A stretch of 64,000 bases of DNA from [Leptolyngbya] sp. PCC 7376 (GTDB taxonomy: Bacteria > Cyanobacteriota > Cyanobacteriia > Cyanobacteriales > MRBY01): the NCBI RefSeq assembly GCF_000316605.1, contig NC_019683.1:1906036-1970035 (forward strand), written 5' to 3'. This document shows, piece by piece, positions 11,358 through 56,504 of this stretch (positions are counted from its first letter, which is position 1; each line of letters opens with the position of its first letter). The notes under the pieces are model-generated. The model searched no databases. It saw only the letters and a list, made by a program, of their open reading frames with translations, and had not been told where the DNA came from. The position numbers were made by a program, and so were the translations under genes.

Positions 11358-13628
11358 TTAGCCAAATCGTAATCTCAGAGAATTTAGGACAACCAACACA
11401 GAACTCATTGCCATAAATCCAGCGGCAACAGATGGACTGAGGCTAACATTCCACAGAGGAAGGCAAACGCCAGCGGCTAAGGGAATTGCGATGAGATTAT
11501 AGCCCAATGCCCACCAGAGATTTTGGCGAATCACAGCCACGGTTGCACGACTTAATTTGAGAAGCTTCACAACATCTGAGAGGCGATCGCCCATCAACAC
11601 AACGTCAGCGGTGGCAAGAGCAACGTCAGTACTGCCAGACAACGAAATCCCTACATCAGCAGTGGCTAAGGCTGGCGCATCATTAATCCCATCACCCACC
11701 ATCGCAATAGATTGCTTTTCTGCATTAAGCTCGGTCAAGATTTTTGCTTTTTCGGTGGGAGAAACAGCAGAAAAATATTTTTGAATCCCGAGCTTTTGAG
11801 CAAGGTTTGAGACGATTGTTTTTTGATCGCCGCTGAGGAGCACGACATTTAAGCCCACATTTTGTAAATCGTGAACCATCTGGGCGGCATCATCCCGCAA
11901 AGGATCGGCGATCGCCACAATACCGACCACCTGTTGATTAATCGCAATGACAACGGAGGTATGGCCTTGGGCTGACCATTCTGCCGAGGTTTGCAAAAAC
12001 GCAGTAGGAATATTGAATTGCTCCGCTTCAAACCAACGCACACTGCCAATCTGTATTTGGCGATCGCCCACTGTTCCCCGCACACCTTTCCCTAAAACTG
12101 TTTCCACTTCAGTCGGTTCATCAAGAAATTCAGGATCAGTTGCCTGTAAAAATGCTTTGGCATAGGGATGATTAGTATGTTGTTCGACACTCGCAGCCAA
12201 ACTCAGTAACGTCGCAGAGTCATAGTTTGAAGCGCACAGAATCTCAACAATGCTAGGTTGACCCTGGGTTAATGTCCCAGTCTTATCAAAAACAACTGTT
12301 TGAAGTCTGTGAAGTCGTTCGAGGATGTCACCGCCCTTAATTAAAATCCCCTGCTCTGCACCAATGCCTGTGCCGACTAGCAATGCTGTGGGCGTTGCCA
12401 AACCCAAAGCACAGGGGCAAGCAACAACCAACACGGCGATCGCCAATTTTAGACTTAGGACTTCCGGGCTAATACTCGCCAATTCAACCCAAACTTTTGT
12501 GCCAATAAATTCCCAAAACAAAAATGTACACAGGGCGATCGCCATGACACCATAGGCAAAATAACCAGCTACCTGATCTGCCAACTGCTGTACTGGAGCC
12601 TTACGCGTTTGAGCGGCAGTCACTGTTCGAATAATCTGCGCCAAAACTGTATTTTGAGCAGTCTTTGTCACTTGGACGATGAGTACGCCTAATTGATTGA
12701 GTGTACCTGCTTTTACCGTATTACCAGGTCGTTTTTCAATTGGAATGGCTTCCCCTGTCAACATCGACTCATCAACGGTCGTTTCACCTCGCAAGACCTC
12801 ACCATCCACGGGCATTTTTTCACCAGGCAGAACCCTTACCCATTCCCCAATTTGTACCTGGGTCACCGGAATAATAACTTCATCGGTTTCGCCTTTATTT
12901 GCCCGACCCATTAGACGTGCTCCTTGGGGTTGCAACGCCAATAATGACTCCAATGCAGACATCGCATTTAGCCGGGCACTCCCCTCTAGGGTGCGTCCCA
13001 ACAAGATAAAACCAAGCAACATCACAGGTTCATCAAAAAAGCATTCCCAACCCAACTGCGGCGCAACCCAAGCCACACAGCTCGTCAGATAAGCACTCAA
13101 TGTCCCCAGTCCAACGAGAGTATTCATATTGGCATGGCCTTTTACCAAGCCAGTCCAACCATCTCGCAAAATCGGAAAACCTGGAATCAATAGGGCTAAA
13201 GTCGCCATGCCCCAATGCACAGCCATCAAATTAAAAATCGGGACTCTGATACCGCCGAGATGATGTAAATGATCGAGGGTTGACCCCACCAATAGTAAGA
13301 TCGCCGCCCCTAAACGCCAATATTGTTCGCGCTGAGTCTTCTGACGTTTTGCCTGGTAATCTTCAAAGGTTTCGGTTTCTGCTGTTCTTGGTTGGGTCGG
13401 GAACCCCATATCCGTTAATTTGCCGGCGATCGCCCCTGGGACAATTTTTTCCTGCTCATAGGTAACCACTGCCACTTCTGTAATCAAATTAACCGTGGCT
13501 GATAGCACTCCAGATTGCTGTTTTAGCTGTCGTTCTACAGCAGCAACACAGCCAGCACAACGCATACCTTGTACGTCAAATGCGGTGGTCATCGATTCAG
13601 GATTTTGGAGGACGGAAGATGAGGTCAT
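11358..13628 (-). CDS. ctaA: Copper-transporting P1B-type ATPase (CtaA/PacS family, CtaA-like)
   Basis: 756 residues. An N-terminal heavy-metal-associated domain carries GMRCAGC (C24 and C27) and lacks the GMxCxxC spacing variants of zinc pumps. Eight membrane helices surround the CPC motif of helix 6 (about residue 405), the TGE loop (MLTGEAIP), the phosphorylated Asp in DKTGTLTQG (about 447) and GDGINDAPAL near 655. CPC plus the single metal-binding domain indicates Cu(I). Cyanobacteria usually have CtaA in the plasma membrane and PacS in the thylakoid, passing copper to plastocyanin and oxidase. MRCAGCVAAVE resembles CtaA more than PacS, but I rate that split at only about 60 percent. A second ATG at codon 13 is an alternative start. 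Confidence 0.88.
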   Translation of the reverse strand: MTSSSVLQNPESMTTAFDVQGMRCAGCVAAVERQLKQQSGVLSATVNLITEVAVVTYEQEKIVPGAIAGKLTDMGFPTQPRTAETETFEDYQAKRQKTQREQYWRLGAAILLLVGSTLDHLHHLGGIRVPIFNLMAVHWGMATLALLIPGFPILRDGWTGLVKGHANMNTLVGLGTLSAYLTSCVAWVAPQLGWECFFDEPVMLLGFILLGRTLEGSARLNAMSALESLLALQPQGARLMGRANKGETDEVIIPVTQVQIGEWVRVLPGEKMPVDGEVLRGETTVDESMLTGEAIPIEKRPGNTVKAGTLNQLGVLIVQVTKTAQNTVLAQIIRTVTAAQTRKAPVQQLADQVAGYFAYGVMAIALCTFLFWEFIGTKVWVELASISPEVLSLKLAIAVLVVACPCALGLATPTALLVGTGIGAEQGILIKGGDILERLHRLQTVVFDKTGTLTQGQPSIVEILCASNYDSATLLSLAASVEQHTNHPYAKAFLQATDPEFLDEPTEVETVLGKGVRGTVGDRQIQIGSVRWFEAEQFNIPTAFLQTSAEWSAQGHTSVVIAINQQVVGIVAIADPLRDDAAQMVHDLQNVGLNVVLLSGDQKTIVSNLAQKLGIQKYFSAVSPTEKAKILTELNAEKQSIAMVGDGINDAPALATADVGISLSGSTDVALATADVVLMGDRLSDVVKLLKLSRATVAVIRQNLWWALGYNLIAIPLAAGVCLPLWNVSLSPSVAAGFMAMSSVLVVLNSLRLRFG

Positions 13629-13787
13629 AAAAAGTTTTTCAGTCCAGAAAGCCTACTGATCCGAGTATGACGAAAATTCAAGACTCCAAACCGTTTACGC
13701 TCAAATCGACAAAAATCTTCAGACTCTTCCGGAGAGTAGTCCTCCTTTAGAGAAAGTAAGAAGTGGTAGATGCACCCTGATTGATAG

Positions 13788-13816
13788 TCTCGGCCTTTTA
13801 GGTCGGGATTTTTTTT
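13788..13816 (+). terminator. Orphan plus-strand intrinsic terminator
   Basis: TCTCGGCC (13788-13795), loop TTTTA, then GGTCGGGA (13801-13808) form an 8-bp stem with two G-U wobbles, followed by eight T. Both flanking protein genes are on the minus strand, so nothing known on this strand ends here. A plus-strand small RNA starting between about 13630 and 13720 is the simplest explanation. Confidence 0.55.
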
Positions 13817-13859
13817 GTCAACATAAAACTGAAGCTCAGGCGATCGCCAAAATTCAGAT

Positions 13860-13891
13860 AAACAAATAGGACTCCCGCCTCTTGGAAGTCC
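13860..13891 (-). terminator. Intrinsic terminator of the chemosensory operon
   Basis: On the minus strand GGACTTCC, a 7-nt loop and GGGAGTCC form an 8-bp stem with one G-U pair, followed by TATTTGTTT. It lies about 40 bp beyond the stop of the CheA-like gene, the last gene of the operon. Confidence 0.5.
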
Positions 13892-13929
13892 CTAAACCCA
13901 AACTATTTTCATCTCTCTTCGCCTGAAAC

Positions 13930-16900
13930 TTAAGATGGGGCGATCGCCGCAGTTTGAGATTGTTTCGTTTCAGCGACGGCAGACTGTAATGTTTCGATTA
14001 ATTCTTGATCCAGATAAGGCTTAGTGAGATATCCGTTTGCCCCGAGCTGCTGTGCTAATTGACGGTAGCGCTTACTGCCGCGCGAAGTGAGCATCAACAC
14101 AGGTAAATCAGTTTTCGCATGTTGCTTACGACATCGCCCTAAAAATTCAAATCCATTCATCTGCGGCATTTCCACATCACAAATAATTCCTTCAACCTCT
14201 GGATGTTGTTCTAACTGATTTAAACCATCAGCGCCATCTTGAGCTTGGACAACGCGATATCCAGCTTTCTGCAATGTCGTCGATAGCGTTTGCCTAGTGG
14301 TTAAAGAATCATCAATCACAAGGACAGTCGGCAACACCAGCTTTGGCTTGAGATGTCTCATATGAGTATCGATCATCGCAATTTTTTGGGTGCCTTTCCG
14401 AATCATTCGCTCAAGTAAAGCAGCACCATCTAGTACCGTAACCAAACGTCCATCACCAAGCACCGTACAGCCAGAAATATAGCTGGGTGGGTTAATCGCG
14501 CTGCCAAAGGGTTTAATCACGAGATTTTGCTCTAGCAAAATTTGATCAACCTTAATACCAATCACATCATTCCCCTGGGAAATCACAAGCACCATTTGCT
14601 GCCCTGCCTGTTTCCAGATGCTACTCATGTTGCTGCGCGCCCAAGTGCCCATAATTTGTTGGCGGCTAGCGATTAGCGATGAAGGATAATTAAATCCAAC
14701 CAGCAAATCTTGAATCAGTGGTACGGGACGACCTTTCCAAGTGAAAATTTCTTTATTATCTTTTTGCTTGATATCCTCTGGCGCAGCGGCGGCGATCGCC
14801 GAGAGACTATTAACGGGAATAGCGAGAAAACTTTCTTGCGCACGGAATAAGAGTAATTTTGTAATGGTCATACTCCAAGGCAAACGCAGCGTAAACGTTG
14901 TCCCTTTACCTAGCTCTGAGGTGATGGAAATATTGCCCTTTAGTGCCCGGATTTGGAGACGTACTGCATCAAGACCAACACCTCGTCCTGACAAATGACT
15001 AACCTTTGCCGCAGTGGAAAAGCCCGGCACAAACAATAACTCATAGACTTGAGCTGAAGACATCGCGGCAGCTTCATCGGCATCGATGACACCTTTCTCA
15101 ATTGCTCGATCACGGATTTTGTCGATATCAATACCCCGGCCATCATCACGCACCTCAAGGTAGGTGGAGTTCCCACGGTTATAAGCTTTGATGATAATGG
15201 TGCCGGAGTCAGACTTACCTGCGGCTAAGCGTTCTTCCGGAGTATCAATGCCATGATCAAAAGCATTACGCACTAGATGTACAAGGGGATCATAGAGCTT
15301 TGACAAAATAGCGCGATCCACCAAAGTCGTGGTTCCTTCGAGTTCGAGGGAAACAGGCTTATTACTTTTAACCGATAAATCTCGCACTGTTCGCGGAAAG
15401 CGATTGAGCAGATCTCCAATCGGCAACATCCGCGCTTCAAGCAAATTATGTTCGAGTTGCTTAATAGTTTGTTGGCGCTGTTTGAGATTTTGTTGATCCT
15501 GCTGATTGATGAGGGTTGTATCTTCGATGGTTTCACCAAGCTGTGCCATTTCTTCAGCGATGGTGGAAGCAAAGACCACAAATTGAGCTAATTGAGCTCG
15601 GGCCTGGGGGTTCTTAATAACAAGTTCTTTAGAATACTGCTGAAATTGATTGGTGATTTTATTGAAGCGATTAAACCAACGTTTCAGAGAATCGAGAGCA
15701 TCAAGGCTTTGTTTATTGCGAAGTAGGGCACTATTATCCTGAGTAACCAGTTCACCAACAAGGTTGTTGAGGTAATTCAGTCGTCCCATATCCAAACGGA
15801 CGCTCAAACTACTGGTGTCGATCATTGGAGCCGCCTGACTCGGCGATCGCCCAACTGATAAATCACGTTTTGGCTTATTTGGTAAAGATTCTGGTATTTG
15901 CGCTACAGCTGGAGAAACGTCTTCTTCTACGGCCATTTCTTTTTCTTCTACAGCCATTTCTTTGACAATCGGCAATTCCGTAGGAGGCGGGCCAGTTTCT
16001 GGTGCTGCGACGATTGGCTCTTCAGGGGGTTTTGCTCCATTAGTGACAAGCACTTGGGGCATGGGCTCTCGCACTGTTTCTTCAACAACAGCAGTTAATA
16101 AATCACCAGCATCATCTTCATCGTCTTCAATAATTAGGCTAGCTAGCTCATCATCAGAAAAGAGTAGTGTGCTTTCATCATCACTCTCTTCTCCCAAAAA
16201 TTGGATAGCAGCTAATTCTGTAGGATCAAGCTCTAAATCATCATCTATTACTGGTGTTTCAGCTTCGGGGCGATCGCCATTTATCGTTGGTACAGTTTCT
16301 TGAATAAGCGGCACTGTATCTTCATTGGTTACAGCTTCAGGTTCTGTCTGACTGGTTTTAGGCTGAGTTTGGGTTAGCTCTAATAAAGCTTGGCTCGGTT
16401 CACCACCTTGGGTGCGATCGCCATTAACAACGGCCTGTTGCCCTAATCGGAAATCATGGAGAGCCAGGGATGCGATTTTAACAACATGCTCACCATTCAC
16501 CTCCACCGCATCTGCCGCAGCTTGGGCGATCGCCGCAAACCCTTCTAAATTCAACATGTCCCCCAATGTCGCCAACACTTCCAACTGAGAGGCTAGATCA
16601 GACACCGGCGATTTAACAGGCGGCTGCTTCACAAAATTTTCAAGACGCGCAAGGGCTTGGGGTACCTCTTCCGTAAAAATAAATTCTGTAATGTCCCCTT
16701 CCATCTGCATTTCAGGGAGTTCTGCCGCTTCCGAGAGGGCATGGCCAAGTTTTGCCTCTAGGGACACAAAAATTGGCTTTGCTTTATCTAACGCTCGATC
16801 TGGATCATACTCACCTGTTTGAATCTGCTGTCGAATCGGCTCCTGAAGAGCATCATAGGCTTGCAAAAGAAGATTCTCTAGCTCTAGATCAAAAACCGTA

Positions 16901-17151
16901 TCTTCCTTATATAGAGCACGGATCCCATTTTCCAGATCATGGGCAATGGACTGCACTGCCATCAAACCAATACAAGCTGCACCACCCTTAATCGAGTGAG
17001 CGGCCCGCATCAAGCCATGAATTTTTTGCGCTTCATGCTCCTGAACCAAGGTCATCAACCCAGACTCAAGATGCTGGAGCAATTCCATTGACTCCTGCAC
17101 AAAGAATTCATATGCCTGATCATTGGTATCAACGCGTGTTTCCCTTGCCAT
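13930..17151 (-). CDS. CheA-type hybrid histidine kinase with C-terminal receiver (PixL/PilL-like)
   Basis: 1073 residues from the ATG at 17151; TTG at 17157 and GTG at 17154 are in frame, and AAGAGG upstream would suit the TTG, so the start is uncertain by two codons. Order of domains: Hpt with phospho-acceptor His (RAAHSIKGGA, about residue 52); an acidic low-complexity linker (about 240-430); dimerisation region (about 450-590); CheA-type ATPase with NAFDHG and DDGRGID (about 600-760); CheW-like domain (about 770-910); and receiver domain (VIDDSLTTRQT, phosphoryl Asp near 992 in CDVEMP, K in TKPY). This is the layout of the phototaxis and pilus kinases PixL and PilL/Hik36. It is the distal gene of a five-gene cluster and phosphorylates its CheY partners. 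Confidence 0.88.
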   Translation of the reverse strand: MARETRVDTNDQAYEFFVQESMELLQHLESGLMTLVQEHEAQKIHGLMRAAHSIKGGAACIGLMAVQSIAHDLENGIRALYKEDTVFDLELENLLLQAYDALQEPIRQQIQTGEYDPDRALDKAKPIFVSLEAKLGHALSEAAELPEMQMEGDITEFIFTEEVPQALARLENFVKQPPVKSPVSDLASQLEVLATLGDMLNLEGFAAIAQAAADAVEVNGEHVVKIASLALHDFRLGQQAVVNGDRTQGGEPSQALLELTQTQPKTSQTEPEAVTNEDTVPLIQETVPTINGDRPEAETPVIDDDLELDPTELAAIQFLGEESDDESTLLFSDDELASLIIEDDEDDAGDLLTAVVEETVREPMPQVLVTNGAKPPEEPIVAAPETGPPPTELPIVKEMAVEEKEMAVEEDVSPAVAQIPESLPNKPKRDLSVGRSPSQAAPMIDTSSLSVRLDMGRLNYLNNLVGELVTQDNSALLRNKQSLDALDSLKRWFNRFNKITNQFQQYSKELVIKNPQARAQLAQFVVFASTIAEEMAQLGETIEDTTLINQQDQQNLKQRQQTIKQLEHNLLEARMLPIGDLLNRFPRTVRDLSVKSNKPVSLELEGTTTLVDRAILSKLYDPLVHLVRNAFDHGIDTPEERLAAGKSDSGTIIIKAYNRGNSTYLEVRDDGRGIDIDKIRDRAIEKGVIDADEAAAMSSAQVYELLFVPGFSTAAKVSHLSGRGVGLDAVRLQIRALKGNISITSELGKGTTFTLRLPWSMTITKLLLFRAQESFLAIPVNSLSAIAAAAPEDIKQKDNKEIFTWKGRPVPLIQDLLVGFNYPSSLIASRQQIMGTWARSNMSSIWKQAGQQMVLVISQGNDVIGIKVDQILLEQNLVIKPFGSAINPPSYISGCTVLGDGRLVTVLDGAALLERMIRKGTQKIAMIDTHMRHLKPKLVLPTVLVIDDSLTTRQTLSTTLQKAGYRVVQAQDGADGLNQLEQHPEVEGIICDVEMPQMNGFEFLGRCRKQHAKTDLPVLMLTSRGSKRYRQLAQQLGANGYLTKPYLDQELIETLQSAVAETKQSQTAAIAPS

Positions 17152-17393
17152 CACCAAAACATGACCCTCTTAGCAGCCAATAAACATTTAAACTACACCT
17201 ACAACAACCATACGCAGCAATCGGGTGTGATTCAGAAAAATAAACAATCATTCATTAGGGTCAAGCTTCGCCAAGCTGACTCTTTAACGATAGAAATGAA
17301 GCAATCCAGAGTCCTCCCAAACCTGCTGTAACCCTATCTAATGGTGATGTTTAGGCGATAGCAGGTCTAGGCGGGGCGATCGCTCCGAGAGAC

Positions 17394-20300
17394 TTACTGA
17401 ACCTTAAACTCCGACACACTCTGTTGCAGTTCTCCCGCAACACCGAGGAGCTTCGTAAAGGATTCCGCCACCTTGACTGATTGCTCAGATGTTTGGCTAG
17501 AAATTTCCGCCACATCCTGCATAGTCTGGTTTAGTTCATTCGAGATATTTACCTGAGTTGATGCCGATTTCGCAATCTCTTCAACCACACGGTTAATACT
17601 TGTACTCACTTTTGCCAGATCTGTCAGAGTTTGACGAGTTCCTTTCACAAGCTTTGTCCCGATTAATACCCGCTTCCGACCAATGTCCATCGCCTTGATT
17701 ACCTCATTAGTCTCCGATTGGATCTCTTCGATAATCTCCTCAATTTCCTTGGTCGCATTGGCAGACTGTTCCGCTAAAGTACGGACTTCATTGGCTACCG
17801 CAAAACCCTGTTCCTCTTCTCCAGCTCTTGTGGCCTCAACCGATGCATTCAGAGCAAGAAGATTCGTCTGATTTGCCAGTTCACGAATCAAATTCAGTAC
17901 CCGCGAAATTTTCTGAGAAGCATCCGCAAGATTTTTTACCTTGCGCGCCGTTGCTTCTACAGTTTGTTGAATGGCCAAAATACCTTGTACAGTTCGGTTC
18001 ATCGCTACATCACCAGCTTTTAGGGTTTTGTTTGCGAGTTGTACCTTTTGTTGAGCATCTTGGGCATTCGTGGCAACCTCACGGATAGAGGTCGTCATAT
18101 CAGTAATTTTCTGGAGTGCTTCCCCAACACTTTCCGCTTGACGCAACGCTTCTGTGGACAGGTTCTTAATTTGACTTTCACTGTCTTGAGCGGTTTCCGA
18201 CACGATAGATGTCGAATCTTGTACTTGTTGCACCAGTTGTTGGAGGTTCTCAATCGTTGCATTAAAGAAGTCAGCAACGGTTCCCATTTCCCCCTCTGTT
18301 ACACCAGCTCTTACGGTGAGGTCGCCTTCAAAAGAATTCTCGATTTCTTCGAGGAAATTTTCGATTTGACCTTGAAGCTGCTCTTTCTGTTGCCGTTGCT
18401 CTTGGGATGTTTCTTCCGCTTGCTGACGAGATTCTTCAATTTCATTGAGTAATAGTGCTTGATCCAGGGCATAACCGAGCTGAATTGCAACCTGCCGGAA
18501 AGATTCCACTAGGGGGGCTTCCCACTCACGGGTGCTGGAACATTGGTGTGCCCCAAGCAACCCATACAGTTTTTGATTCACCAAAATCGGCACTACCACG
18601 TTGGCTTTCACCTGCCATTTTCCAAGTTGTTCCTCGTGACAAGCGGTGAGTCCGGCCTGGTTAACATCGGGCGTCACTTGTACACGTCCTTGGCGATAGG
18701 GTTCAACGTAATCTTCAGGGAAACAAGGTACCTCACCATCTGCCATCATGTCTTGGCTCAACTTCCGCCAGCCACTAGCAACCGCTTCATACGGAATATT
18801 ACCGCCCCAGTTTTCATCAAATCGATAGACCACAACACGATCGCACTTCATGAGTTTGAGTGCTTCCTCTGTACCTGTCCGGAAGATTCGTTCAACGTCA
18901 AGGGACTCACGCACCCGGAAACTAATCAAGTTCACCTGTTTGGTTCGAGCAACCGCTTCTTCTTGAGCACGGCGGAGAAGAGCTTGGTCAAGGGCATAAC
19001 CGATTTGCTCTGACAGCTGTCGAATCGTATCTGTTTCCAACTCTGTCCAAGAGCGTGTATTCGAACACTGATGTACCACTAAAAGGCCATACAGCCGTTG
19101 GTTTGCTACGATGCCTGCGGCCATATAGCCTTTCACACCGTAGGGTGAAAACTCATTAACGTGGCAGTCAACAAAATCAGAGTTAAAAATATCCGTAACG
19201 GTTTTAATGTTGCCCTTCAGGTAATACTTCGAGAATTTCTCTGTGACATGAGGCTCATTCGTACGGACACCAAGGGTAGCCGGATAGCCTGTATTCACGG
19301 ATTCTGAGGTGATAATACCTTTCCAAGAGGAGTCAAATTCATAAATAATGGCGCGATCACTCCCAAGAATTTCTCGAGTTTCTTCGACAGCCACATTCAA
19401 AATCGCTTCAACTTCAGAGGATTCCTGTAAGCGTAAACGCGTTTCATTCAAGCGTTTTGCCCGCTCTTGCTCTTCTCGTAGAAATGCTTGCTCAAGTACA
19501 TAACCTGTTTGCTGAGCAATTTGTTTTAGAGTATTGATTTCAGTGTCAGTCCACTGACGGAAATCAGAACACTGCTGCACCATAAACATGCCATATAGTT
19601 TTTGGTTAGCAACAAGTCCCACTGCCATATAAGCCTTAACGCCATGGGCTTCCACCTCTTTCAGTTGACATTCTATAAAGCCTGCTTCATAGACATTTTC
19701 ATAGGCGAGCACTTTACCGCGTATATAGGACTTCGCTAATTTGTCGCCTACCAGTTGCTCATTGGTTTTGAATCCCAGAACTGAATCTACTCCAGTGGCA
19801 ACTGATTCAGCATTAACAATGCCCCGCCATTCTCCATCAAATTTATGGACGAATACACGATCCGCATCAAGAATGTCTCGAGCTTCATCGACGGCAGCAT
19901 TGAGAATTTCGCTTACCTCAAAAGATTCTTGCAGGCGAGCACTAACATCACTCAAACGCTGAGCACGCTCTGCGGTCATTTGCCGCTGCTCAATCAGATT
20001 AATTCGCTCTAAGGCAAAACTTACCTGGTTACTAATTTGACGCAATAGACTATTCTCAGATTCTTGCCATTGTCGAACCGATTGACAGCTATGCACCACC
20101 ATCAGTCCGAATAGTTTTTTCTCAATGGTGACAGGCGCAATCATCAGCGATCGCACCTGGGAGAGTTCGAGATGTTCGCGCTGAAATTCACTCAGGCCAG
20201 CCCCAGTCATCCGGCTCAGAACGGTGATTTTGCCCCGTTGTGCCTGTTTAACGTAACGTTCATCTAGACCACAATCATGGAGACTTTTATCAAGGAGACT

Positions 20301-21782
20301 CTTCCAGCGGGGTTCTGAAGATTCGGCGATCGCCGTACCCTTCAGTTGAGCATCCACCTTGAAAATAACAACCCGATCAACCTTAAGTGCTTCCCGAGCA
20401 TCATCGACAACACTATCGAGAATTTCTTCAATATCGCTGTAGCCACCCAATCGTGCCGAAATATCATTGAGAATCTGTGCCTGAAGTGCGGCATCTTCTT
20501 GTTGCTGCAGCGCAAATGCCTGGTCAAGGGCTGTCCCAATCTGTACTGCTGCTTTCTTGAGAATTTCAGTTTCATTCCCTGTCCAACGTCGTGCGGAAGT
20601 ACACTGATGGACGACCAAAAAGCCCATTAGCTTTTGTTTTGCCATAATCGGCGCGACAAGACTTGCCCGAATTGCTCTTGCCTTGAGCTGATCGAGGGTG
20701 GCATCATCAATTTCTAGCTCATAAACATCGTTCACACGGTTAAGCTGACCGCGTTGATAGGCTTCGAGATAGGACAGAGCTAGCCACGGACTTGGCAATG
20801 CCATTCCCATAGTGGTGGGAAATTGCCGTTCGACAGACTCTGCCACAACTTGGTTTTGTCCTTCAGCATTGAGGCGACAAACAACGACGCGATCGCCCTT
20901 CAGCGCATTATGAACTTCCTGAACTGCTGCCGCAAAAATATCATCTGCAGTGAGGGATTCTCGAATACGCAAACCAATTTGGTTTAGCCACTGCGCCTGT
21001 TCTGCAGCCTCTCGCTGTTGACCAAGAAGTTGCGCTTGGTCAAGGGCATAACCCACCTGAACAGCCAGCTGACGGAAAAAATCAATCTCGGATTCAGACC
21101 ATTCCCGCGCATTAGAACAATGGTGCGCCACTAACAAGCCATATAAATCGCCTTCTAAAAGTAAGGGGGTTGTCAAACTGGCTTGGGTATCCAAACGCTG
21201 CAGTTGCTCTAATAAAGAACTATCAAGCTGAACGCTATTACTGACATCATCAACCGCCTCTACTCGCCCTTGCTGATATAACTTAATCGCTTGATCCGAC
21301 ATGGAATTGCCCATGTAGTAAGAGCCCAAGGCACTCGGCCAAAGACGCTCAACCGATTCATAGGAACCTTTTGCCAGCCAATTTTCATCAAAAATATAGA
21401 CAACTACCCGATCCACATCGAGGGCATTACGAGCATCTGTGACTGTGGCGTTGAGAATATATTCAAAGTTGAGGGACTCTCGAATGTGAGAGGTCATCGC
21501 ATTCAACAATTCTGCCCGTTCTACAGCTGCTCGCTCAGTTGCGAGGAGGGATTGCAGCTCGTCAGTCATCATATCGATGTTAGAGCGGAGGCTACTAAGC
21601 TCTCCCACCAAGGCACCTGCTTTAGAACTCAGGGCAGAGTGCTTGGCATCAGATGAAAGGGACTGTACGGGAACGAGGGTCAGGGTCTCTTCAATCCGTC
21701 GTTCTTGGGCAGAAAGGGAAGGGTTTTCTAGACCACTGTTTTTATTGGGATCGTTGTTGGGACGGATGGGAGTCTGAGTCAT
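17394..21782 (-). CDS. Soluble methyl-accepting chemotaxis protein with six GAF domains (PixJ-like)
   Basis: 1462 residues. After a 75-residue leader come six GAF domains at roughly 95-257, 275-425, 440-597, 612-767, 782-935 and 950-1112, a Gln/Glu-rich helix, a HAMP-like segment (GDLTVRAGVTEGEMGTVADF, about 1154-1173) and an MCP signalling hairpin (about 1200-1440, tip ELANQTNLLALNASVEATR). No membrane helix is visible, unlike Synechocystis PixJ. GAF6 has Cys1048-His1049 in LTACHEEQL and a second Cys1020 in EVPCF, the two positions used by DXCF-type cyanobacteriochromes. GAF5 keeps Cys873-His874; GAF4 has Cys705-Gln706; GAF1 to GAF3 lack the canonical Cys. It probably senses light and drives the adjacent CheA kinase. 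There are 236 bp to the CheA-like gene. Confidence 0.88.
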   Translation of the reverse strand: MTQTPIRPNNDPNKNSGLENPSLSAQERRIEETLTLVPVQSLSSDAKHSALSSKAGALVGELSSLRSNIDMMTDELQSLLATERAAVERAELLNAMTSHIRESLNFEYILNATVTDARNALDVDRVVVYIFDENWLAKGSYESVERLWPSALGSYYMGNSMSDQAIKLYQQGRVEAVDDVSNSVQLDSSLLEQLQRLDTQASLTTPLLLEGDLYGLLVAHHCSNAREWSESEIDFFRQLAVQVGYALDQAQLLGQQREAAEQAQWLNQIGLRIRESLTADDIFAAAVQEVHNALKGDRVVVCRLNAEGQNQVVAESVERQFPTTMGMALPSPWLALSYLEAYQRGQLNRVNDVYELEIDDATLDQLKARAIRASLVAPIMAKQKLMGFLVVHQCTSARRWTGNETEILKKAAVQIGTALDQAFALQQQEDAALQAQILNDISARLGGYSDIEEILDSVVDDAREALKVDRVVIFKVDAQLKGTAIAESSEPRWKSLLDKSLHDCGLDERYVKQAQRGKITVLSRMTGAGLSEFQREHLELSQVRSLMIAPVTIEKKLFGLMVVHSCQSVRQWQESENSLLRQISNQVSFALERINLIEQRQMTAERAQRLSDVSARLQESFEVSEILNAAVDEARDILDADRVFVHKFDGEWRGIVNAESVATGVDSVLGFKTNEQLVGDKLAKSYIRGKVLAYENVYEAGFIECQLKEVEAHGVKAYMAVGLVANQKLYGMFMVQQCSDFRQWTDTEINTLKQIAQQTGYVLEQAFLREEQERAKRLNETRLRLQESSEVEAILNVAVEETREILGSDRAIIYEFDSSWKGIITSESVNTGYPATLGVRTNEPHVTEKFSKYYLKGNIKTVTDIFNSDFVDCHVNEFSPYGVKGYMAAGIVANQRLYGLLVVHQCSNTRSWTELETDTIRQLSEQIGYALDQALLRRAQEEAVARTKQVNLISFRVRESLDVERIFRTGTEEALKLMKCDRVVVYRFDENWGGNIPYEAVASGWRKLSQDMMADGEVPCFPEDYVEPYRQGRVQVTPDVNQAGLTACHEEQLGKWQVKANVVVPILVNQKLYGLLGAHQCSSTREWEAPLVESFRQVAIQLGYALDQALLLNEIEESRQQAEETSQEQRQQKEQLQGQIENFLEEIENSFEGDLTVRAGVTEGEMGTVADFFNATIENLQQLVQQVQDSTSIVSETAQDSESQIKNLSTEALRQAESVGEALQKITDMTTSIREVATNAQDAQQKVQLANKTLKAGDVAMNRTVQGILAIQQTVEATARKVKNLADASQKISRVLNLIRELANQTNLLALNASVEATRAGEEEQGFAVANEVRTLAEQSANATKEIEEIIEEIQSETNEVIKAMDIGRKRVLIGTKLVKGTRQTLTDLAKVSTSINRVVEEIAKSASTQVNISNELNQTMQDVAEISSQTSEQSVKVAESFTKLLGVAGELQQSVSEFKVQ

Positions 21783-21885
21783 GGTTATTGCGGCAAATTC
21801 AACAAGTTAGGTAAGAATGTTGGAGAAAAAAGGAAGAAAGTATGATTTCAAAATTGTTTTTGATCTCGTCTATGAAATTTTCTTT

Positions 21886-22380
21886 TCAAGTCGGCGATCG
21901 CAGGGTTTCGAGTAATGCACCAAGATTGACACTGACCACAGAGGTATCCTTCATGGCAGCAAAAGAACCATTGAGTAGGGGAGCTACTTCAGGTTTAAAC
22001 GAATCTGGCAATTTAGCCTGGATTTTCGTACTATCACACCGGATCAGCTGACGCACTTCCGCAACGAGAATGCCAAAGCTTTGTTGATTTATAGTGACTT
22101 TGAGCACATTGCATTTTGCAGATTGATAGTCAGTGCTTAGGAGGGGTGGCAAGCCCAGGGCATAGGATAAATCAACTAGCCAGAGTACTTCACCACGCCA
22201 ACCGCATATACCAACAACGGCGGGGGGCAAATCGGGGATTTGAACAATGCTGTCTAAGCCAAGATTGACTGTTTCCGTCAGCTGACTAGTGGGAATCATG
22301 CCCCATAGTTTCTGGGTTAGAAGAAAGCTAATAAATTGCTGTTCTGTGGTAGGGGGATCTGTCGATGTTTTTGGAGCCAT
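21886..22380 (-). CDS. CheW-like coupling protein (PixI/PilI-like)
   Basis: 164 residues from the ATG at 22380; a TTG three codons upstream is in frame but sits directly on the AAAGG ribosome site, so the ATG is chosen. The CheW fold shows as PPAVVGICGWRGEVLWLVDLSYALGLPP (the RG-x-V/I-L-x-L-x-D signature) and NVLKVTINQQSFGILVAEV. It bridges the multi-GAF receptor and the CheA kinase encoded in the same cluster. It lies between the CheY-like gene and the MCP gene, 103 bp from the latter. Confidence 0.85.
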   Translation of the reverse strand: MAPKTSTDPPTTEQQFISFLLTQKLWGMIPTSQLTETVNLGLDSIVQIPDLPPAVVGICGWRGEVLWLVDLSYALGLPPLLSTDYQSAKCNVLKVTINQQSFGILVAEVRQLIRCDSTKIQAKLPDSFKPEVAPLLNGSFAAMKDTSVVSVNLGALLETLRSPT

Positions 22381-22528
22381 ATCATGCAACCTTTGATGGG
22401 AGGGGATAGCAGATGTCCTGAGTGGGGTTTAAAGCCAAAAAGTTATGCTCGTTTTTTTCGAGGGCGATCGCCAGCCGCAACTTAGAAAGGGACTGGCAAT
22501 CAGTAAATGAACCCTTACCGCCCGATGA

Positions 22529-22891
22529 TTAGCCGACCCATTTACGGACAGCACCGAGGAGCGCATCTTGATCGATAGGCTTGGTGATGTAATCATTGGC
22601 GCCCTGTTTAGCAGCCCATTTTTTGTCCATTTTTTCGGATTTGCTGGAGCACATAATCACCGGAATTTTTTCAGTTTTAGGATCTTTTTTGAGTTCACGG
22701 CATAGTCCAAACCCGCTCTGACCAGGCAACACAACATCCAGGACAATGCCATCTACGGCTTTCTGGCTCAAAATTGCTTTTGCTGCCTCTGCAGTCGTCA
22801 CCTTCAATAGGGTAAATCCCGCCCCTTCCAGACAGGATGTAATAATTTGCGCTTCAGTCGGACTGTCTTCAACGAGCAATAATGTTGACAT
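22529..22891 (-). CDS. CheY-like response regulator (PixH/PilH-like)
   Basis: 120 residues, a stand-alone receiver domain: acidic pair in LLVEDSPTE (E8, D9), phospho-acceptor Asp52 in IVLDVVLPG, the Ser in VIMCSSKSEK and Lys in DYITKPID near the C-terminus. There is no output domain, so it acts by protein interaction, probably on type IV pilus machinery, as assigned to PixH and PilH. It is the second gene of the cluster. Confidence 0.88.
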   Translation of the reverse strand: MSTLLLVEDSPTEAQIITSCLEGAGFTLLKVTTAEAAKAILSQKAVDGIVLDVVLPGQSGFGLCRELKKDPKTEKIPVIMCSSKSEKMDKKWAAKQGANDYITKPIDQDALLGAVRKWVG

Positions 22892-22964
22892 CTTAAACCT
22901 CTAAAAAATAATTGAAACGGACATGAAATCCTACGGTATTTGAAGGCGATCGCCCCAATGGAAC

Positions 22965-24188
22965 TTATAGATTTCGTGATAAGGCAGAATTCGCAACCCC
23001 TACATCAACCGGAATCTGGTCAGTCGTTTGTTTTTTTTCGGCAATTTCCTCCAAGTATTTTTCAACGAGGGCCAAAGTCTTCTCTGCATCTGGTGGTTTA
23101 CCCAGAAAATCAGAAGCCCCGACCAATTTCGCTCGATTGCGATCAATCAGCGTGTCTCGACTCGTCAGTACGATAATGGGGGTTTTCTCAAAAACCGATG
23201 TCTGCCGTAAAAATTTGCAGACACTATAGCCACTCGCATTCGGCATGACGAGATCGAGAATAATAATGTCTGGCTGATTTTCAATTAATTTTGCAACACC
23301 TCGCATCGGCTCATTAATAGCCAATGTTTTGTAACCTGCGCCTTCTAAAATCTTTTTCAAAGTCTGGAGAATGACCGGACTATCATCAATACAAGCAATC
23401 AGACCTTCACGACTAGGCTCTTGACTGCCCCGAGACTGGCGAGCGGATGAACTCGCTGCTTTATCCATTCCAGCCAAAGGATGAGGTAAGTCCGTGATTT
23501 TTTTGAGCTGTACGATGCGCTTTTTCAATAAGGGGATGAGCGCTTTCGTCACGTTAGTAACAGATTTTCCTAATTGAACTGAAATATCCCAGAGCGTCGA
23601 TTGTCCATTAAGATAACGCCCAAAAACCCCTAGGGCAGAAGGGTTTACTCCTGTACGCAATACTGGTGCGAGAGTCGGACTAAGGTTTCCCAAACCAGCG
23701 CTTTGCCACTGCCGCTGTAAGGCGACGACTTTCGAAATATCTGGATCTACTTCTAGATAGGACAGGGATAAACTCAGGGCAATTTCTGTCGCCTGCTTGG
23801 AGTTTTCTTGCCATTCAATCGTGGCATTGCCATAACAGCCAAGATCAAAAAAAACTTCTTGGGCGATCGCCCGAATAATTGCCTTTGCCTGAACCACCGT
23901 AATTTGTTTGTGGTTAATCCCTTGATAGAGGAGCTGATACTCCCACATATGAGCATCGTGTAATTCTTTTGGATTTGGAATCCAGTCAGGCACCAATCGC
24001 TTGGTAATTCTATTCCAGCGACGCGTTTCATGAATCCCAGCTTTCGCATAAAGCAAACGACCAGACAAAAGATAAATCCGTCCTTTTGTCTGACTATTAC
24101 CAATAACCAACTCCCCTGTTGCCCGTTTTTGACAAAGAACATTGAGTTGTTCAGCGATCAATTTGAGGGTGTTGACTGTGGCTGTCAT
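22965..24188 (-). CDS. PatA-like response regulator with DUF4388/PATAN N-terminus (PixG/PilG-like)
   Basis: 407 residues. The N-terminal 110 residues (TGELVIGNSQTKGRIYLLSG, then RLLYAKAG) match the PATAN/DUF4388 module of PatA regulators. A helical middle and a Ser/Arg-rich linker (about 245-260) follow. The C-terminal receiver (about 263-385) has ACIDDSPVI, phosphoryl Asp312 in IIILDLVMP, and KPPD. Family members are the first gene of pix and pil clusters and transmit the kinase signal to the pilus motors; PATAN domains bind PilB or PilC-type partners. It is the promoter-proximal gene here, with a long AT-rich upstream region. Confidence 0.85.
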   Translation of the reverse strand: MTATVNTLKLIAEQLNVLCQKRATGELVIGNSQTKGRIYLLSGRLLYAKAGIHETRRWNRITKRLVPDWIPNPKELHDAHMWEYQLLYQGINHKQITVVQAKAIIRAIAQEVFFDLGCYGNATIEWQENSKQATEIALSLSLSYLEVDPDISKVVALQRQWQSAGLGNLSPTLAPVLRTGVNPSALGVFGRYLNGQSTLWDISVQLGKSVTNVTKALIPLLKKRIVQLKKITDLPHPLAGMDKAASSSARQSRGSQEPSREGLIACIDDSPVILQTLKKILEGAGYKTLAINEPMRGVAKLIENQPDIIILDLVMPNASGYSVCKFLRQTSVFEKTPIIVLTSRDTLIDRNRAKLVGASDFLGKPPDAEKTLALVEKYLEEIAEKKQTTDQIPVDVGVANSALSRNL

Positions 24189-53671: not shown

Positions 53672-54421
53672 ATGAGTGAGCTGACAACAAGCAACGTTCA
53701 AATTCAAAACGGTGAGTTGAAAATTGACGCTTATCTAGCCCAACCAACAACAAATGAACTTTGTCCTGCTGTGATTGTGGTGCAAGAAATTTTTGGGGTA
53801 AATGCTCATATTCGTGAGGTAACAGAGAGAGTTGCGGCTTTAGGCTATGTGGCGATCGCCCCAGCTATTTACCAGCGTATAGCTCCTGGTTTTGAAACAG
53901 GGTATGCACCAGAAGATATTAAACTCGGGCGGCAATATAAGGTTCAGACTAAAGCCTCTGAGCTACTCAGCGATCTACAAGCAACAGTAGATTATCTTTA
54001 CGCATTGCCACAAGTACAACAAAAAGGAATTGGCTTAATTGGATTTTGCTTTGGAGGTCATGTTGCTTATCTCGGGGCAACACTAGATGCAGTAAAAGCC
54101 ACAGCTTCTTTTTACGGCGCGGGCATTGCTAATTGGTGTCCGGGAGAAGAGGAGCCCACAACAATAGACAGAACAGCCGATATTGACGGCGAAATATACT
54201 GTTTTTTTGGCAAAGAAGATACTTCCATTCCTATGGAACAAGTAAAACAAATTGAGGCAGCACTCCAAAATAACAACATCAAACATCAGATTTTTATCTA
54301 CGACAACGCAGGTCATGGTTTCTGTTGCGATCGCCGTGCTAGTTATGAGCCCACGGCTGCGGCAGATGCTTGGGAAAAAGCTTGTAGGCTATTTGAGCAT
54401 GTGCTTTCCGACGATAAATAA
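53672..54421 (+). CDS. Dienelactone hydrolase family protein
   Basis: 249 residues, an alpha/beta hydrolase. Catalytic residues are Cys126 in IGFCFGGHVAY (the Cys nucleophile of dienelactone hydrolases), Glu39 in VVQEIFGVN, an Asp in FGKEDTSIP (near 184) and His in NAGHGFCCDRR (near 215). It hydrolyses lactones or esters; dienelactone itself is unlikely as a substrate because no chlorocatechol pathway is seen. The protein is cytoplasmic and apparently monocistronic. Confidence 0.88.
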   Translation: MSELTTSNVQIQNGELKIDAYLAQPTTNELCPAVIVVQEIFGVNAHIREVTERVAALGYVAIAPAIYQRIAPGFETGYAPEDIKLGRQYKVQTKASELLSDLQATVDYLYALPQVQQKGIGLIGFCFGGHVAYLGATLDAVKATASFYGAGIANWCPGEEEPTTIDRTADIDGEIYCFFGKEDTSIPMEQVKQIEAALQNNNIKHQIFIYDNAGHGFCCDRRASYEPTAAADAWEKACRLFEHVLSDDK

Positions 54422-54579: not shown

Positions 54580-56220
54580 ATGGATAAATTGCTAGATCTT
54601 TGGAGTAACATTATTTCGCCAGAAGGCTATATGCCCCATGGTCATTGCTATCTTTGGCAAACTCCCCTCGTCTGGCTGCATGTCACATCCGATGTGTTGA
54701 TCGGTCTGGCTTATTTTTCAATTCCCCTTTGCCTCGTTTATTTTGTGCGCCGCGCAGAGAATGTGCCATTCCGTGGAATTTTTCAGCTTTTTTCCCTATT
54801 TATCATTGCTTGCGGTTTGACTCACTTCGCTGAAGTTTGGACATTATGGCATCCTGCTTATTGGCTATCGGGCAGCTTAAAAGCCTTGACAGCAGTAATT
54901 TCCGTCTATACTTCCATTAAATTAGTGCCGACCATTCCCCAAGCTCTATCTCTCAAATCTCCAAAAACACTTCAAATTCTGAATGAGCAATTGCAGAATC
55001 AAATTCAGGAACGAACAGTTGCCGAAGCCAAAATTCTCACGTTAAATCAACAGCTCGAATCACGGATTGAAGCAAGAACTCTATCATTAGCAGAAACAAA
55101 TGAGCGCCTGACGAAAGAGGTTGCAATACGTCGTCGAGCCGAAGAATCATTTCAGATTGCGAATAACAAACTGGCTGACCAGCTTGCACAACTCGAACAA
55201 TTTACGGCAGTCCAAACTTGTATTAGTGAGCTGAGTGAGACCTTACAAATCTGTCATTCGCTGGAAGAGGCCTTTAAGGTCAGTGCAAAATTAATTAAGG
55301 GAATTTTCCCCAACTGCCGAGGCTATATTTTCATGGCACGCTCAGTGTCCTCATCTCAGTTAGACTGTGTTGCAAAGTGGGGTGATCAAGCCATAACAAA
55401 AATGATTACAAGCCTTGAGCAACAAGATTGTTGGGGCATTCGGAAAAGTACTCCCCATATCTCGGATCTAGAAGGGGCAGGTTTATGTTGTGAGCATCTC
55501 CAGGGCTCTCCCGCTGCGATGATTATTTGTGTACCCTTAATTATTCAAGGGGAAGTTTTAGGGCTATTCCAACTGGAATCGGATAAAGTGCTTGAGCCTT
55601 TAACTCAGGGTTATGCCAAAAATGTTGCGGATCAACTGGCTTTATCTTTTAAAAATCTCAAACTTCGGGGTGAGCTCAAGATACAAAGTTATTCGGATCC
55701 CTTAACAGGGCTCTACAATCGTCGTTATCTGGAAATTTACTTGACTCAGAGATTTTCAGGTTGGACGAAAGAGGATAGAGTCGCCAGCTTGATTTTGTTT
55801 GATGTGGATCATTTTAAGATGGTCAATGATACATATGGTCATGATGCTGGGGATCTAGTACTGCAATATATCGCGCAATTTCTCAAGGTCAATGTACGGA
55901 ACATCGATCTCATCTGCCGTTATGGTGGGGAAGAAATTTTAGTTGTTCTGCCGAATGCTCCTTTACAACAGGCTTATCAACGAGCAGAAATTTTACGGCA
56001 AGGTATCCAACAACTAAAGATTCGCCATGAACAGCAATTTTTGCCTTCAATTACTGTATCGGCAGGGGTTGCTAATTTTTCTGATGAGCTTAATACAGTA
56101 ACCAAAGTGCTCAAGGCCGTAGATCAAGCGCTTTATCAGGCCAAAGATGAGGGGCGCAATTGTGTTATTTCTGTGGGATTGGAAGTTGAGGCGATCGCCC
56201 CCAAAGAAAGCCCCCATTAA
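54580..56220 (+). CDS. Diguanylate cyclase with ETR1-like ethylene-binding membrane domain and GAF
   Basis: 546 residues. Three membrane helices (about 31-55, 66-87, 96-116) match the ethylene receptor domain: SDVLIGLAYFSIPLCLVYFV has Asp38, Tyr45, Ile48 and Pro49, and FIIACGLTHFAEVW has Cys78 and His82, equivalent to the copper ligands Cys65 and His69 of Arabidopsis ETR1. A coiled coil (about 128-200) and a GAF-like domain (about 205-350) follow. The GGDEF domain (about 370-535) has DPLTGLYNRRY, FDVDHFKMVNDTYGH and RYGGEEI, so catalysis of c-di-GMP from GTP is probable. Synechocystis has the same sensor in the histidine kinase SynETR1 (Slr1212), here with a cyclase output. Confidence 0.85.
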   Translation: MDKLLDLWSNIISPEGYMPHGHCYLWQTPLVWLHVTSDVLIGLAYFSIPLCLVYFVRRAENVPFRGIFQLFSLFIIACGLTHFAEVWTLWHPAYWLSGSLKALTAVISVYTSIKLVPTIPQALSLKSPKTLQILNEQLQNQIQERTVAEAKILTLNQQLESRIEARTLSLAETNERLTKEVAIRRRAEESFQIANNKLADQLAQLEQFTAVQTCISELSETLQICHSLEEAFKVSAKLIKGIFPNCRGYIFMARSVSSSQLDCVAKWGDQAITKMITSLEQQDCWGIRKSTPHISDLEGAGLCCEHLQGSPAAMIICVPLIIQGEVLGLFQLESDKVLEPLTQGYAKNVADQLALSFKNLKLRGELKIQSYSDPLTGLYNRRYLEIYLTQRFSGWTKEDRVASLILFDVDHFKMVNDTYGHDAGDLVLQYIAQFLKVNVRNIDLICRYGGEEILVVLPNAPLQQAYQRAEILRQGIQQLKIRHEQQFLPSITVSAGVANFSDELNTVTKVLKAVDQALYQAKDEGRNCVISVGLEVEAIAPKESPH

Positions 56221-56276: not shown

Positions 56277-56504
56277 ATGTCGAATCCTGTTCCCCTTGAT
56301 GAACCTGTGATCCAGCTCGATCAATTTCTGAAAGTGATGAATTTCGTCGCGACAGGAGGTCAAGCCAAAGCGATGATCCAAGGGGGATTTGTCGAGGTCA
56401 ATGGCGAAACGGAAACCCGCCGTAAAAAGAAGCTCCGCCATGGTGATATTGTCACTTTCGAAGGTGAGACAGTAGAAGTCGAGTTTAATGAGGATGCTGA
56501 TTAA
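56277..56504 (+). CDS. S4-domain RNA-binding protein (YbcJ/RqcP-like)
   Basis: 75 residues from the ATG at 56277; an in-frame start 11 codons upstream lacks conservation. The S4 fold is complete: IQLDQFLKVMNFVATGGQAK, MIQGGFVEVNGETETRRKKK and LRHGDIVTFEG. It matches the short YbcJ group rather than the tRNA synthetase or S4 proteins. Relatives bind structured RNA, possibly on the ribosome. It lies 57 bp after the diguanylate cyclase and converges on the VWA gene within 6 bp. Confidence 0.85.
   Translation: MSNPVPLDEPVIQLDQFLKVMNFVATGGQAKAMIQGGFVEVNGETETRRKKKLRHGDIVTFEGETVEVEFNEDAD

Follow-up and report, generated by a model that had tools for sequence, protein, structure and literature searches.

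The window (the whole 64,000-nucleotide stretch of PCC 7376 DNA analyzed here) carries, between a gene of the dienelactone hydrolase family (DLH) and a gene for a small putative S4-type RNA-binding protein, the gene for the protein P0001 (Table 1). The open reading frame put forward in the original prediction is real, with the strand and ATG start given in Table 1, and the architecture claimed for it, an ETR1-type domain, a GAF domain, and a GGEEI cyclase on one chain, is borne out. In Pfam, ETR1_N (PF25487) scores 139.3 bits against a cut-off of 27 (E = 5.1e-41) and GGDEF 162.5 bits against 23.8 (E = 9.2e-48), and because these scores far exceed the cut-offs, the matches are not due to chance. 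The GAF domain, at 20.8 bits slightly below its cut-off of 22.4, is backed by the mixed fold at residues 228–371 of an AlphaFold2 model and by the related cyclases L186, L237, L212, L124, and L196, all of which pass that cut-off. As regards a cyanobacteriochrome-type chromophore GAF domain, Pfam finds only a plain, weak GAF match in the middle domain of P0001; HisKA and HATPase are not matched at E = 0.01, i.e., there is no histidine kinase output by Pfam. The AlphaFold2 model, built from a 39-row alignment (mean pLDDT 86.8, pTM 0.57, with residues 13–25 and 536–546 below 50), predicts three membrane helices (residues 31–58, 65–90, and 94–123), one continuous helix leading out of the ETR domain, and then the mixed folds of the GAF and GGDEF domains. 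By E-value, the best Foldseek hit for the model is Dcsbis, a Pseudomonas diguanylate cyclase (E = 3e-18); the superposition is poor (rmsd 16.9 over 345 columns, query TM-score 0.29), so the domain arrangement of Dcsbis is not matched by the model.

Table 1. Coordinates of the features discussed (positions in the window, or in the locus named)
Feature	Position	Strand	Details	Basis
P0001, ETR-GAF-GGDEF protein, whole gene	54580..56220	+	ATG start, 546 aa	
PHGHCYLW motif, N-terminal, before TM1	54634..54657	+	residues 19–26	alignment
ETR1_N domain	54667..54954	+	residues 30–125	Pfam, alignment, AlphaFold2 model
Predicted signaling helix, single and long, ETR domain to GAF	54961..55251	+	residues 128–224	AlphaFold2 model
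GAF domain	55261..55647	+	residues 228–356, below Pfam cut-off	Pfam, alignment, model
GGDEF domain	55690..56160	+	residues 371–527	Pfam, PleD alignment
Upstream neighbor, DLH family	53672..54421	+	left border of syntenic slot	Pfam, synteny
Downstream neighbor, small putative S4-type RNA-binding protein	56277..56504	+	right border of syntenic slot	synteny
Chemosensory cluster	13930–24188	-	CheA-like hybrid kinase, MCP with six GAF stretches, CheW, receiver, DUF4388-receiver	Pfam
Decayed cyclase fragments, G004, syntenic slot of P0001 gene	L303:6831–7136			
Free HPt ORF, PCC 7376 kinase locus	L315:6546–6941	-	131 aa	Pfam

Within the ETR domain, the six residues to which ligand and copper positions had been ascribed, Asp38, Tyr45, Ile48, Pro49, Cys78, and His82, are all found at the predicted places. 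Across 30 aligned rows of related ETR domains, D38, Y45, I48, C78, and H82 fall in invariant columns, and the column of P49 is at least 90% conserved. D38, Y45, I48, P49, and I75 match the ethylene-binding positions Asp25, Tyr32, Ile35, Pro36, and Ile62 of AtETR1, where we take Tyr32, Ile35, Pro36, and Ile62 to be required for ethylene binding; besides I75, K101 (the counterpart of K91 in AtETR1) is also retained, and helix 2 contains the Cys and His pair, C78 and H82, that would ligate Cu(I). According to excerpts of two papers, ethylene binding requires seven residues (PMC6682694 and PMC11819568), and the latter gives roles for D25, C65, H69, and K91 of AtETR1. A PDB sequence search with the ETR domain of P0001 returned nothing better than E = 0.18, the best matches being unrelated proteins. 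The PHGHCYLW motif ahead of the first membrane helix is kept in most cyanobacterial ETR rows compared (among histidine kinase rows, H20 in 164/176, C23 in 168/176, and W26 in 172/176) and is a possible disulfide or second metal site. Elsewhere in the window, on the minus strand at 11358–13628, lies a gene for a Cu(I)-translocating P-type ATPase (TIGR01511, 577.7 bits against a cut-off of 397) with CAGC and CPC motifs. By analogy with RAN1, which supplies copper to ethylene receptors in plants, this ATPase could be a source of copper for an ETR domain.

The ETR-GGDEF architecture is a recurring minority type among related genomes. ETR1_N is matched in 48 of 60 genomes (PCC 7376 and 59 relatives), in which 131 distinct ETR ORFs were counted after leaving out short fragments (in G034 and G041, and one each in G006, G031, and G047) and several sub-cut-off matches; with output domains scored by purpose-built models, and with one ORF being a partial ETR match, 113 are kinases, 16 carry GGDEF, and 2 have neither. 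Six of the 16 end with the GGDEF domain, and ten have a longer tail. Pfam confirms six GGDEF-only proteins (P0001, L186, L212, L124, L196, and L216) and finds EAL together with ETR1_N in 10/10 of the long-tailed ORFs, the ETR match being weak in two of the ETR-GGDEF-EAL proteins (L224, 59 bits; L232, 28 bits). Among the best 80 named loci, some of whose ORFs run off the contig (L065, L074, and L110), ETR and GGDEF occur together in one, L106 from Aphanothece, with the same coordinates and scores as L126. A search of 386 genomes with full-length P0001, three candidates being scored per genome, gave no other full-length relative at E = 1e-85; a search of 373 genomes with a five-row alignment added L237 (confirmed by Pfam) and later L251 and L257, in which the ETR domain was found by the purpose-built model only. 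L313, a 638-residue candidate from G024, was rejected: it carries GGDEF, but the ETR model does not match it at E = 1. No relative of P0001 was found in viral contigs, and among the best 5000 plasmid records none covers 80% of the protein.

All six ethylene-site residues (D, Y, I, P, C, and H) are intact in 5/7 GGDEF-only, 5/8 GGDEF+EAL, 134/176 histidine kinase, and 4/6 other rows, in a set that differs from the 131 ORFs (it excludes duplicates, loci numbered below L034, and domains shorter than 95 residues, and it includes L237 in addition). Among the eight proteins of the ETR-GAF-GGEEx build, the site is intact in P0001, L186, L124, L237, and L251 and damaged in L212 (Cys to Tyr, Pro to Ser), L196 (Asp to Glu, Tyr to Phe, Pro to Ser), and L257 (Cys to Gly). 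With three of the eight damaged, loss of an intact site does not prevent a cyclase of this build from persisting, and the damaged sites argue against a universal need for the site. In the GAF domain, C284, W285, R288, C304, H306, and C317 (window positions 55429–55530) are kept in 5/5 aligned ETR-cyclases and form a possible metal or redox site; a PDB sequence search with this domain gave no match at 0.1. The GAF domain could be the main sensor of P0001, and the ETR domain could now be mainly a membrane anchor, with the cyclase either controlled through C284, C304, H306, and C317 of the GAF domain or constitutive. It speaks for such an anchor that the three damaged proteins have lost parts of the ethylene site and kept the GGEE motif and RxxD, the third of them, L257, strengthening the point slightly, and that the GAF-GGEEx module also occurs in 11 proteins that have a complete N-terminus and no ETR match. 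However, every ETR position compared is intact in P0001, L186, L124, L237, and L251, which would not be expected of a bare anchor, and we consider a mainly anchoring role for the ETR domain of P0001 unlikely, though deserving of some weight.

The Cu site of P0001 could also serve copper sensing, in which case the ETR domain would respond to copper itself or to a different ligand bound at that site, with the cyclase reporting copper status. Cys78 and His82 are both present in 6/7 GGDEF-only, 7/8 GGDEF+EAL, 165/176 histidine kinase, and 5/6 other rows, and the gene for the Cu(I) P-type ATPase is in the same window. Yet P0001 has kept D38, Y45, I48, P49, and I75 as well, and the matching positions of AtETR1 matter for ethylene; moreover, the ATPase gene is ∼41 kb from that of P0001, and such genes are common. 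Relatives with an ETR domain are also reported, in excerpts of PMC6682694 and PMC11819568, to bind ethylene, and overall a copper sensor seems to us improbable.

On the output side, the GGDEF part of P0001 aligns to PleD, its best solved relative by sequence (E = 4e-32), with D408, K413, N416, D425, E451, E452, K522, and R526 falling on catalytic, metal, and GTP residues of PleD and with the RxxD inhibitory site (R440-x-x-D443) conserved. The signature is GGEEI (residues 449–453), just as had been predicted, Ile replacing Phe, the canonical fifth residue of GG[DE]EF. In the GAF-GGEEx list (32 rows, one a copy of P0001, hence 31 distinct proteins), position five is occupied by I, L, or M in 29/31 and by F in 2/31, and RxxD is present in 31/31; GGEEI is therefore a subfamily variant, not decay. 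The ETR-containing relatives illustrate this range, with GGEEI in L186, L124, and L212, GGEEL in L196, GGEEF in L237, and GGEEM in L251. In the alignment, Arg390 of PleD, which in the numbering we assume is the secondary I-site arginine, is Ile in P0001. That P0001 is a receptor for c-di-GMP or GTP and not an active cyclase, as this Ile and the departure from GG[DE]EF might suggest, is very improbable, given that the PleD catalytic positions are conserved and that aliphatic residues are usual at position five in the subfamily.

The likeliest function of P0001, to which we assign a probability of roughly 0.6 on the strength of its sequence, is that of a membrane-bound diguanylate cyclase under the control of an ethylene-type sensor that depends on Cu(I). 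The N-terminal three-helix domain would coordinate Cu(I) via Cys78 and His82 and, through the metal, bind ethylene or a related small alkene, the long helix and the GAF domain would relay the change in the sensor to the GGEEI cyclase, and the cyclase would make c-di-GMP under feedback inhibition at the RxxD site; ligand, copper, enzymatic activity, coupling, and the sign of the response are what we infer here. With intact ethylene/Cu(I) and cyclase sites on one polypeptide, ethylene could set c-di-GMP directly through P0001. The whole PCC 7376 genome (5,125,950 bases in one contig) contains a single ETR match at E = 0.001, and because P0001 is thus the only ETR-type receptor found in it, any ETR-mediated ethylene response should run via c-di-GMP and not via a phosphorelay. 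The link that the original prediction drew to the chemosensory cluster is not supported: the cluster exists (its DUF4388-receiver protein is presumably PatA-like), but ∼30 kb and many genes separate it from the P0001 gene, it is on the opposite strand, and a Pfam scan of 11358–24188 shows no connection. At E = 0.001 the genome has 34 GGDEF and 24 EAL matches, no match to the PilZ effector, and two to ComFB, which is not counted as a c-di-GMP effector because it is reported as a c-di-AMP receptor in an excerpt of PMC12313861.

Each of the six genomes compared within the genus (PCC 7376, or G000, and G001–G005) has exactly one ETR match. In G001–G005 the protein is a hybrid kinase with a frame of 1234–1262 residues (L114–L118), and Pfam scans of two of the five found ETR1_N, PAS, HisKA, HATPase_c, receiver, and Hpt domains. 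In these kinases Asp38 is Asn in 4/5 (L114, L115, L116, and L118), and Lys101 is replaced in 5/5; because mutation of D25 in AtETR1 abolishes ethylene binding, as stated in an excerpt of PMC11819568, the four with Asn may no longer bind ethylene. The block GCS2-SpoU-M23-DLH-S4-vWA (S4 and vWA being putative names) is syntenic in 5/5 of G001–G005. In G001, G002, G003, and G005 the DLH and S4 genes are adjacent, with no credible cyclase match in the gap. The slot in G004 contains pieces matching residues 200–245 (59%, E = 2e-11), 231–284 (31%, E = 2e-6, in another frame), and 513–532 (65%, E = 3e-4) of P0001, with no credible ETR part among them, and by these matches the remnant is a decayed cyclase. 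Being absent from G005 and decayed in G004, the cyclase gene is dispensable in the genus.

The corresponding kinase locus of PCC 7376, flanked by an RNA methyltransferase-like gene on one side and by serine hydrolase-like and dnaN genes on the other (putative names), holds a free HPt ORF that is 43% identical over 118 residues to the C-terminus of the G005 kinase (E = 2e-31); in the rest of the gap the next best kinase match spans only 33 residues (E = 0.12). The HPt ORF is intact and may still work as a phosphotransfer protein. When six syntenic proteins are concatenated (1841 columns), the unrooted tree places G000 with G005 and then with G004, against G001–G003, with all three inner branches at 100/100; on this tree, if the gene entered the slot once and descended vertically, the cyclase gene is older than the divergence of G000, G005, and G004. 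The domains of P0001, its intact sites, its status as the sole ETR copy found, and the lack of a kinase-type ETR at the syntenic kinase locus can all be read from the DNA. At about even odds, we propose that one genus has exchanged its single ETR receptor between a phosphorelay type and a c-di-GMP-writing type, the kinase having been reduced to a free HPt in PCC 7376 and the cyclase to a decayed fragment in G004, and that, if the ligand is ethylene, P0001 is a one-protein ethylene-to-c-di-GMP receptor. What is new is that members of a single genus have lost receptor types in a complementary way, and the six-genome comparison amounts to a natural experiment in which sister species have one ETR protein each, with different outputs.

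The ETR domain and the GAF-GGDEF module seem to have joined or parted repeatedly. In a 31-row tree of the GAF-GGDEF module, where P0001 sits on a long branch and 12 of the remaining 23 rows are truncated at the N-terminus and could hold an ETR domain, a single clade of the eight ETR rows (L251 and L257 included) is rejected (AU p = 0.00015). A single origin of the fusions is thereby discarded, and starred branches force at least two changes. Tests on six and on five ETR rows gave 0.337 and 0.174, values that apply to those rows only. Trees of the ETR domain itself were built from 197 and 66 rows, and neither fixes the placement of P0001. In the larger one the nearest row to P0001 by path is the cyclase L237, and the GGDEF-only rows cluster (3 changes against a shuffled mean of 6.9, with 0/500 as low). 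In the smaller one P0001 stands beside eight kinase ETR domains, those of the genus included, at a weak support of 81/76; neither a grouping of the six GGDEF-only rows (AU p = 0.27) nor one of P0001 with the genus kinases (AU p = 0.245) is rejected.

In excerpts of the open-licence PMC literature we found no paper on ETR-GGDEF proteins, and the ETR-GGDEF and ETR-GGDEF-EAL relatives of P0001 are likewise undescribed there. The ethylene-binding domain in the excerpts of PMC5812497, PMC7076178, PMC3546692, and PMC10419127 is that of the kinase UirS/SynEtr1, and the GGDEF there belongs to Cph2 (PMC7076178 and PMC3546692) or is a figure label (PMC10419127). In an excerpt of PMC6682694, a distinct gene encoding a diguanylate cyclase domain is grouped with GeiEtr2, and for K. 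xylinus no ethylene receptor is reported, according to part of PMC4686702. Ethylene binding is described, again in excerpts, for Synechocystis and Geitlerinema cells and for the SynEtr1 and AzoEtr1 domains in yeast (PMC6682694 and PMC11819568).

Among comparable proteins, PleD has the catalytic domain and residues of P0001, but neither PleD nor Dcsbis has an ETR domain, and their inputs differ from that of P0001. The ETR-PAS-GAF-GGDEF proteins L186, L124, L212, L196, and L237, which are 41–47% identical to P0001, combine the same sensor and output families, P0001 being without the PAS domain; L251, L257, and the ETR(-PAS)-GGDEF-EAL proteins of other cyanobacteria (L126 and others) likewise have its sensor and output families. 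The hybrid ETR-PAS-PAS-kinase-receiver-HPt proteins of the genus resemble P0001 in being the single ETR protein of their genomes and differ in their phosphorelay output. The tested bacterial ethylene receptors, SynEtr1 and AzoEtr1, are kinases in the excerpted accounts (PMC6682694 and PMC11819568). SynEtr1/UirS (slr1212) of Synechocystis PCC 6803 is, like P0001, a cyanobacterial protein with an N-terminal ethylene-binding domain and the sole such gene in its genome (excerpt of PMC6682694), but its middle domain is a light-sensing cyanobacteriochrome, where P0001 has a weakly matching plain GAF domain, and its output is a histidine kinase that feeds response regulators, where P0001 has GGDEF (excerpts of PMC6682694 and PMC5812497). 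AzoEtr1 of Azospirillum brasilense is a functional bacterial ethylene receptor, and ethylene there alters biofilm and lowers c-di-GMP, by a pathway that the excerpt of PMC11819568 states to be unknown. It is an ETR-PAS-histidine kinase with a predicted response regulator adjoining (PMC11819568, same excerpt), whereas P0001 carries a cyclase in the receptor, and because ethylene domain and cyclase form one chain, an effect of ethylene on c-di-GMP is directly testable in vitro.
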